From assembly GCA_025451095.1 (NCBI GenBank), contig JANWLB010000049.1:1-64000 (forward strand): a stretch of 64,000 nucleotides of DNA, read 5' to 3'. Under the pieces are notes generated by a model. The model made no database searches, was not told where the DNA came from, and saw nothing but the letters and a program-made list of their open reading frames with translations. Shown here in pieces: positions 12,169 to 14,404 of the stretch; position 1 is the first letter of the stretch, and each line of letters begins with the position of its first letter. This stretch comes from Alphaproteobacteria bacterium. Lineage in GTDB: Bacteria; Pseudomonadota; Alphaproteobacteria; Micavibrionales; Micavibrionaceae. Made by a program: the position numbers and the translations under genes.

Positions 12169-12552
12169 ATGACGCTCATACCCATATCGCTGACCGCTTC
12201 CGCCCGGGCCCGTATTGCGGATCTGACCGCGCGTAAACCTGGTGCCCGCGGAATTATCCTGAGCATTGCCAAAGGCAAGGGTTGTGGCGGCAACGAATAT
12301 AAAATGGATTATATGATAGATGAAAAGCCGGGCTTTGATAAAATTGCGACGGAAGGCGCGGCGGCGCTTTATGTTCCCGTCACGGACAGCTTCATGATGT
12401 TCGGCATGACCATCGATTATACGAAGGACGAACTGGACAACGAAAAATTCGTTTTTCTGAATCCTAACGAAACGGGGCGCTGCGGTTGCGGCGCGTCGTT
12501 CAGCGTTGGCGCGCAGGTATCCTCCGCGTCAGATAAAAACGGGTGCGGATAA
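12169..12552 (+). CDS. sufA: A-type Fe-S carrier (SufA/IscA/HesB family)
   Basis: KGKGCGGNEYKMDY and C-terminal ETGRCGCGASF cysteine motifs. Confidence 0.92.
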   Translation: MTLIPISLTASARARIADLTARKPGARGIILSIAKGKGCGGNEYKMDYMIDEKPGFDKIATEGAAALYVPVTDSFMMFGMTIDYTKDELDNEKFVFLNPNETGRCGCGASFSVGAQVSSASDKNGCG

Positions 12553-12559
12553 AAAGGCT

Positions 12560-12844
12560 CTAGGAAAAAAGAACAGGCAGATAGACGCCTACAATGCCTT
12601 TGGATTTCGACGCTCTCATGCCATCCCCTGTTTTTACCTGCGCTTCGGCAACCACGGCACTGTCCCAGCGTAATGTAAGCGGGCAATCAAGCGCTCCGCA
12701 GTCATAGGTGACTTTGTCTCCGGAAATTCGAAGAGATTCAGGATTTGTGTTGCCCAGCCACATATAGGCCAGACCGTTTCTTTGGATCGTGGGATTGGAA
12801 GGCTGAGGCGCCTCACAGAAAGGATGAGCATAATAATAAGACAT
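12560..12844 (-). CDS. Hypothetical protein, 94 aa, paralog of the 12931-13227 product
   Basis: ORF with AAAAGAAGAGAAACAA upstream of ATG; shares PTIxRNxxxYxW and VGxYxP motifs with the neighbouring ORF. Confidence 0.72.
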   Translation of the reverse strand: MSYYYAHPFCEAPQPSNPTIQRNGLAYMWLGNTNPESLRISGDKVTYDCGALDCPLTLRWDSAVVAEAQVKTGDGMRASKSKGIVGVYLPVLFS

Positions 12845-12930
12845 TTGTTTCTCTTCTTTTAATTCATCTCAAATCAAGCAGTCAGCGTTGGTGGATGTGT
12901 GCGCTGTCATTCCGGTTTTCCTGCCTCAGC

Positions 12931-13227
12931 TCAGGACGGCAGATAAGTTCTCGGCACATATATACCGACAAAGTCTGCGCCGCGGCAGACGGCCGCTTTC
13001 GGCGGATTGTGCGCCGGGCCGACGATCGCATCGGAATAGATGCTCCTCAGTACCGGGCTGGCAAGGGAGGCGGTGACCGTGACGCCCGCGTCGTTGCTCT
13101 TGATGTTGCTGCTGCGTGCGTCCATGTGCCAGTCATAGATCGTGTCGTTGCGTAAAATCGTCGGTCTGTCCACTTCGCGCAGAAGTTTCAGAACCGGGCT
13201 CCAGTCTTTTTCGGCTGTGGTGGTCAT
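12931..13227 (-). CDS. Hypothetical protein, 98 aa, paralog of the 12560-12844 product
   Basis: AAGGAGA Shine-Dalgarno before ATG; RPTILRNDTIYDW...FVGIYVP aligns to NPTIQRNGLAYMW...IVGVYLP of the downstream gene. Confidence 0.75.
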   Translation of the reverse strand: MTTTAEKDWSPVLKLLREVDRPTILRNDTIYDWHMDARSSNIKSNDAGVTVTASLASPVLRSIYSDAIVGPAHNPPKAAVCRGADFVGIYVPRTYLPS

Positions 13228-13260
13228 TTCTTTCTCCTTGCTTTTGTCTAGGCGGACAGC

Positions 13261-13351
13261 GTGGGTTTCAACATGTAAATGCCCACCATTCCCTCTGCTT
13301 TTAAATATTCAGCGGTGTAGCTCTGAGAGCTATTAGGCTCCGGGCTCCTAA
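13261..13351 (-). promoter_or_regulatory. Structured 5' leader with three hairpins upstream of the paralog pair
   Basis: TTAGG/CCTAA (13333-13351), TAGCTC-TGA-GAGCTA (13318-13332) and GTGGG/CCCAC (13261-13286), lying between the putative promoter (13373-13401) and the ATG at 13227. Confidence 0.45.
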
Positions 13352-13372
13352 ATCCTGTTGTGGATGGCAGTT

Positions 13373-13401
13373 AAGCTACCACTCGTCAATTCTTATGTCA
13401 A
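13373..13401 (-). promoter_or_regulatory. Putative promoter TTGACA-17-TAGCTT
   Basis: Consensus -35, 17-nt spacer, weaker -10 on the minus strand immediately downstream of the dusA stop. Confidence 0.45.
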
Positions 13402-13408
13402 TTTAAAA

Positions 13409-14404
13409 TCAGGCGGCTTCCAGCCGGCGGCTTTCGGCGGGCAGCTGGGCGAGGGCGGTAGCAAGACAGACTTTCTCGCTCAAGGTCCGCCGCCACAGGC
13501 GGGCGCCGCGCTCGCCGTTATATAGCCCCAGCATATGCCGGATGATGGACCAGGCAGGGACGCCGTGATCGGTGTTTTGCCGGTTTATATAGGCTATCAT
13601 GGCCTCGGCGACTGTTTCCCGGGGTAAAATTGCAGGGTTTTTGAAGATTTCCCGCTCAATTTCAGCCAGAAACCACGGATTTTGATAAAATTCACGGCCA
13701 ATCATAACGCCATCAAAGCTTTCAAGATGGATTTTAATGTCTTCAACCCGGTTTATACCCCCGTTCAGGATGATTTTCAGATGAGGATAGGTTTCCCTGA
13801 TCTGGCGGGCGATGTCGTAGCGCAGAGGCGGAACTGACCTGTTCTCCTTGGGGCTCAGCCCTTTAAGAATGGCTTTCCGGGCATGTATAATAAATTTCTG
13901 ACATCCAGCTTCAGAAACTTCTTTTATAAATTTGTTTAAAAAAGGAAAATCATCGCTGTCGTCTATGCCGATGCGGCATTTGACTGTCACCGGGATTTTG
14001 ACGGCCCGGCTCATGGCCTCGACGCAGCGGGCGACAAGGCCTGGCTCGGCCATCAGGCAGGCGCCAAAGCGACCGCTTTGTACCCGGTCGGAGGGGCAGC
14101 CGCAATTCAGGTTGATTTCATCGTAGCCGTAGCTTTCCCCCCGTTCAGCACACACGGCGAGGTCGGCGGGATCTGAGCCGCCCAGCTGCAGGGCGACCGG
14201 GCTTTCGGCCGGCGAAAAGGCCAGGTGGTGGTCACGGTCGCCGTGAAGCAGGGCGCCGGTCGTCACCATTTCCGTATAGAGATGGATGTGAGGCGCGATC
14301 AGGCGATGGAAGTACCGGCAGTGGCGGTCCGTCCAGTCCATCATCGGCGCAACAGCGATGTAGGGCGCTTTTTTAACCTTATCCATCTCGGGTATTTTTC
14401 TCAT
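13409..14404 (-). CDS. dusA: tRNA-dihydrouridine synthase A
   Basis: VAPMMDWTDRHCRYFHRLI ... EINLNCGCPSDRVQSGRFGACLM ... ILNGGI ... DGVMIGREFYQNPW. Confidence 0.96.
   Translation of the reverse strand: MRKIPEMDKVKKAPYIAVAPMMDWTDRHCRYFHRLIAPHIHLYTEMVTTGALLHGDRDHHLAFSPAESPVALQLGGSDPADLAVCAERGESYGYDEINLNCGCPSDRVQSGRFGACLMAEPGLVARCVEAMSRAVKIPVTVKCRIGIDDSDDFPFLNKFIKEVSEAGCQKFIIHARKAILKGLSPKENRSVPPLRYDIARQIRETYPHLKIILNGGINRVEDIKIHLESFDGVMIGREFYQNPWFLAEIEREIFKNPAILPRETVAEAMIAYINRQNTDHGVPAWSIIRHMLGLYNGERGARLWRRTLSEKVCLATALAQLPAESRRLEAA

Follow-up and report, generated by a model that had tools for sequence, protein, structure and literature searches.

Within the 64,000-nucleotide window, the whole stretch of DNA analysed here, the minus strand carries two adjacent co-directional open reading frames, as the earlier note had described: P0002 (98 aa, 12931..13227), the upstream gene of the pair, and P0001 (94 aa, 12560..12844), the downstream gene, with a gap of 86 bp between them. 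Both proteins contain the motifs quoted there, which can be written as an N-terminal [RK]-[ND]-x-x-x-Y-x-W and a C-terminal [VI]-G-[IVL]-Y. A strong Shine-Dalgarno sequence, AAGGAG (13234-13239), forms the ribosome site of P0002, and a purine-rich stretch, AGAAGAG (12851-12857), precedes the ATG of P0001. A coding function for both frames is supported by their in-frame homology to domains of larger proteins.

The pair lies on an 856-bp segment (12553..13408) between two convergent genes. To the left, on the plus strand, a SufA/HesB-type protein is encoded at the end of the suf cluster (sufA, 12169..12552; identity from sequence and context), and to the right, on the minus strand, a tRNA-dihydrouridine synthase of the DusA type (dusA, 13409..14404; identity from sequence). 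The GC content of the segment is 51%, compared to 56% for the window, and that of the 181 bp upstream of P0002 (13228-13408) is 44%; a TTGACA sequence is present near the dusA end of this upstream stretch. An Rfam search of the segment returned no match, promoter and terminator scans gave scores not above those of shuffles, and repeats flanking the segment were of chance length only. The host genome is a 2.0-Mb MAG (85% complete, 6.8% contaminated) of the order Micavibrionales, some members of which are predatory, and its family-level group also contains Micavibrio sp. UBA2705 (G057).

Homology and distribution of the domain

The two proteins had been proposed to be homologous, a view to be judged by profile alignment against shuffled controls, and this proposal held. 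Their local BLOSUM62 alignment scored 55, whereas shuffled sequences averaged 24.7 (z about 6.8) and none of the 2000 shuffles reached the observed value; BLASTP, as a single comparison, gave E 4e-4. A profile-profile comparison of P0001 and the UBA2705 domain with P0002 and copy A of the G071 protein (both described below) gave P 2.6e-6. In held-out tests, a profile of the other five family members recovered P0001 at E 6.1e-9 and P0002 at E 5.5e-8, both scoring above 5000 shuffles and above decoys taken from real ORFs.

A search for further copies among 142 genomes of the order Micavibrionales found the domain in three other genomes, bringing the carriers to 4 of 142 (the window genome, G027, G057 and G071). 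With P0001 alone as the query, a match (E 3.9e-4) was found to the C-terminal 90 residues of a DUF4116 protein of 1241 aa in Micavibrio sp. UBA2705 (DELD01000025.1; L032 4341..8066). A three-row profile detected the domain twice in a row close to the C-terminus of a 1102-aa ELM1-like/DUF4116 protein of G071 (L067 12078..15386), with a whole-genome E of 0.004 and an E of 2.1e-6 when the entire ORF was scored within a smaller set. A five-row profile identified a 152-aa protein of G027 with the domain at its C-terminus (L058 1264..1722; genome-wide E 2.3e-6 before the protein joined the profile), and the six-row profile found a second, 5'-cut copy in the same genome (L158:1507-1665, minus strand; E 2.8e-8). 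This decayed partial copy shares 73% DNA identity with the gene for the 152-aa protein along an aligned stretch of 128 bp, and it overlaps the 5' part of a frame resembling a Smr-domain gene. The weakest family member is copy B of the G071 protein (held-out E 0.006), whose match to P0001 alone was not beyond chance (p 0.06-0.08). Both large carriers hold DUF4116 (PF13475) repeats (Pfam E 4.7e-30 and 2.4e-14), and since DUF4116 passes in only 14 of the 135 genomes of the order searched, a double association by chance is unlikely; the two independent matches to DUF4116 proteins thereby strengthen the case for the G071 match, whose own statistics are weaker.

Weak profile matches in G073, G013, G090, G075, G074 and others were excluded as chance after reading. 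No member outside the order was found at E<=0.02 in a class sample (385 genomes) and a phylum sample (399 genomes); these samples, about 780 genomes together, partly overlap with the order itself, and the absence is a result for the sample and no census. Searches of IMG/VR with four queries, of INPHARED phages with P0002 and of PLSDB plasmids with both proteins likewise returned no relatives. The earlier note had not recognised the family, and the libraries used here agree: no family match was obtained in Pfam (any of the six members, E<=10), NCBIfam or PDB sequences, and none of the PADLOC-DB anti-phage profiles matched the pair at E<=0.1. A PHROG match at E 0.02 was dropped, as it covers 29 residues. 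As far as sequence comparison and prediction can define it, the domain is an undescribed, all-beta unit of about 70-75 residues, seen in a few Micavibrionales only; its core corresponds to residues 22-92 of P0002 (about 12952-13164) and residues 18-90 of P0001 (about 12575-12793), both on the minus strand.

Predicted fold and putative binding role

AlphaFold2 models of moderate confidence, with mean pLDDT values of 72 and 74, support the expectation of compact, beta-rich proteins. The same order of seven strands, in register, is predicted in P0001 (residues 19-22, 25-33, 38-41, 44-48, 57-61, 64-67 and 85-90) and in P0002 (residues 23-26, 29-38, 42-45, 48-53, 60-64, 68-71 and 86-92), an agreement that is weaker than it appears, since both runs used one six-sequence alignment and are not independent. 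Residues 69-78 of P0001 form two extra short strands in the model, while the counterpart in P0002 is a short helix (77-81). Foldseek searches at E<=0.001 returned no PDB fold match to the two models, nor, for P0002, any viral match.

In the six-row alignment, G-x-Y is invariant in all six rows and Y-x-W is present in the four closer rows only. Conservation is concentrated in a basic residue plus an N/D-G/D turn that separates two strands, in aromatics, and in the closing V/I-G-I/V/L-Y strand; an invariant, catalytic-looking set of residues was not found in the six rows. This residue pattern, together with the C-terminal placement of the domain in the larger proteins and the lack of an evident signal peptide in P0001 and P0002 (by eye), suggests a non-catalytic binding module, a reading that we hold tentatively and at somewhat less than even confidence. 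At the end of the large proteins the domain would hold a partner or ligand; P0001 and P0002, as separate small cytoplasmic proteins, would do so in trans, and the two window copies may act side by side, as the G071 copies may in one chain.

Origin of the pair and alternative explanations

Each window protein outscores its match to its neighbour when compared with a domain from another genome: pairwise z was 14.5 for P0001 and the UBA2705 domain, 11.9 for P0002 and copy A of G071, and 6.8 for P0001 and P0002. Copies duplicated in place should be mutual closest relatives, and by pairwise z these are not. As each scores best against a domain from another genome, P0001 and P0002 probably diverged before the present neighbourhood formed; the six-row tree, with no starred branch and very long branches, is weakly supported. 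The two genes also differ in composition. Codon use in P0002 is native (z 6.5 compared to synonymous randomisation; GC3 73%), and that in P0001 is weaker by the same measure (z 2.8) and falls beyond the spread of 20 genes of the window, with a GC3 of 48%.

Comparison of the junction points in the same direction. In five relatives from two family-level groups (G005, G006, G010, G014 and G063), sufA and dusA are convergent and separated by 2, 2, -4, 45 and 26 bp, against 856 bp in the window, which favours the view that the window genome gained the segment. In the congener G001 (L122), a different frame of 182 aa (possibly Sel1-like) lies downstream of sufA and precedes rpsO and truB, with identities assigned by eye; the end of the suf cluster therefore appears variable in this genus. 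The data agree better with the insertion of an old pair, or with two linked insertion events, than with tandem duplication in place. The interpretation of the pair as an old tandem duplication thus stands in part: homology and a probable ancient divergence are retained, whereas duplication at this site is disfavoured by the z values, the codon use and the sufA-dusA junction.

Several other explanations were weighed. A simple tandem duplication at the site, in which one small gene arrived or arose, was duplicated in place and diverged fast, would account for two adjacent genes on the same strand with the same domain and similar length; considering that both proteins score far better against other genomes (14.5 and 11.9) than against each other (6.8), and that GC3 and codon use are very different between the copies, we regard it as unlikely. 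The pair could instead be the remnants of a large DUF4116-type protein that lost its repeat region, its C-terminal domains being left as small ORFs. Two large DUF4116 proteins do carry this domain C-terminally, as one copy or as two in a row, and the decayed fragment in G027 demonstrates that decay occurs. However, each of the two window ORFs encodes the complete domain and has a start and a ribosome site of its own, P0002 has kept native codon use, and DUF4116 is absent from the window MAG (85% complete), making this origin quite unlikely.

The co-directional arrangement, the accessory nature of the segment and the patchy distribution are also what would be seen for a two-gene cassette, either a toxin with its antidote or an effector with its partner, whose homologous small proteins bind each other. 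Such a cassette is hard to reconcile with the empty searches of PADLOC-DB, Pfam and NCBIfam, with the 86-bp gap, where tight coupling is absent, and with the fact that no second genome carries a stand-alone pair, and its probability is low. Only slightly above it we place the possibility that the family is a diverged branch of a known small beta-barrel family, such as the lysozyme inhibitors, beyond the reach of sequence tools. The small all-beta prediction is consistent with this possibility, as is the weak similarity of P0001 to chain 4mir_A found by phmmer (E 1.1), but that E value is at chance level, 4mir is not among the fold matches shown, Pfam was empty at E<=10 for six members, Foldseek found no known barrel and a signal peptide is not evident. 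A bolder proposal has a slim chance of being correct: that the domain is a new fold which giant DUF4116 solenoid proteins of Micavibrionales carry as a transferable recognition module at the C-terminus, and which also travels as a stand-alone pair, acting in trans on these large proteins as their partner, decoy or antagonist.

The explanation that we prefer, although with less than even confidence, is that P0001 and P0002 are accessory stand-alone copies of one domain, likely non-catalytic binding modules, which would have been gained as accessory genes at the sufA-dusA junction. A decayed copy such as that in G027 is as expected of a dispensable, duplicating gene.

Comparison with the DUF4116 proteins

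The family is absent from the libraries used, yet it appears ordinary in kind: small accessory domains that are restricted to one lineage and occur either free or fused are common. What is gained is a small family missing from Pfam and NCBIfam and a tie between two orphan ORFs and giant repeat proteins, with four genomes offering settings for functional tests.

Published modelling describes DUF4116 as an alpha-solenoid (PMC8078820). No DUF4116 match was obtained in the window genome (MAG 85% complete); P0001 and P0002 have no Pfam match and hence no DUF4116 repeats, and the domain is absent from the C-termini of the other DUF4116 proteins examined in the order. One of these, a 1030-aa protein (L113, G071:C6), ends in ...AVTGIYSP, which resembles the last strand of the family, and obtains no score from the profile. 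Other DUF4116 proteins (L103, L104 and L108; genus g46, family f3) have an ankyrin-repeat protein and a TilS-like gene close by in several genomes, a neighbourhood that is conserved by eye. In UBA2705, a 147-aa ORF consisting mostly of more than 10 tandem copies of the octapeptide MYTGMGGG / LYTGAGGG (L032:524-967, plus strand) precedes the DUF4116 protein by a few kb.

The nearest counterpart of P0001 is the C-terminal domain of the UBA2705 protein, its top-scoring match (z 14.5), homologous along the entire domain and itself without a matching Pfam or NCBIfam model; there, however, the domain forms the C-terminal end of a giant repeat protein, while P0001 is a separate 94-aa protein. The 152-aa protein of G027 is small like the window proteins and carries the domain at its C-terminus, but has about 80 extra N-terminal residues and is not one of a pair as in the window; its genome also carries the decayed partial copy. 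The arrangement in G071, where copy A is the top match of P0002 (z 11.9), resembles the window in having two copies in tandem; in G071 these are part of one polypeptide together with an N-terminal Mito_fiss_Elm1 region and DUF4116, whereas in the window they are two genes.
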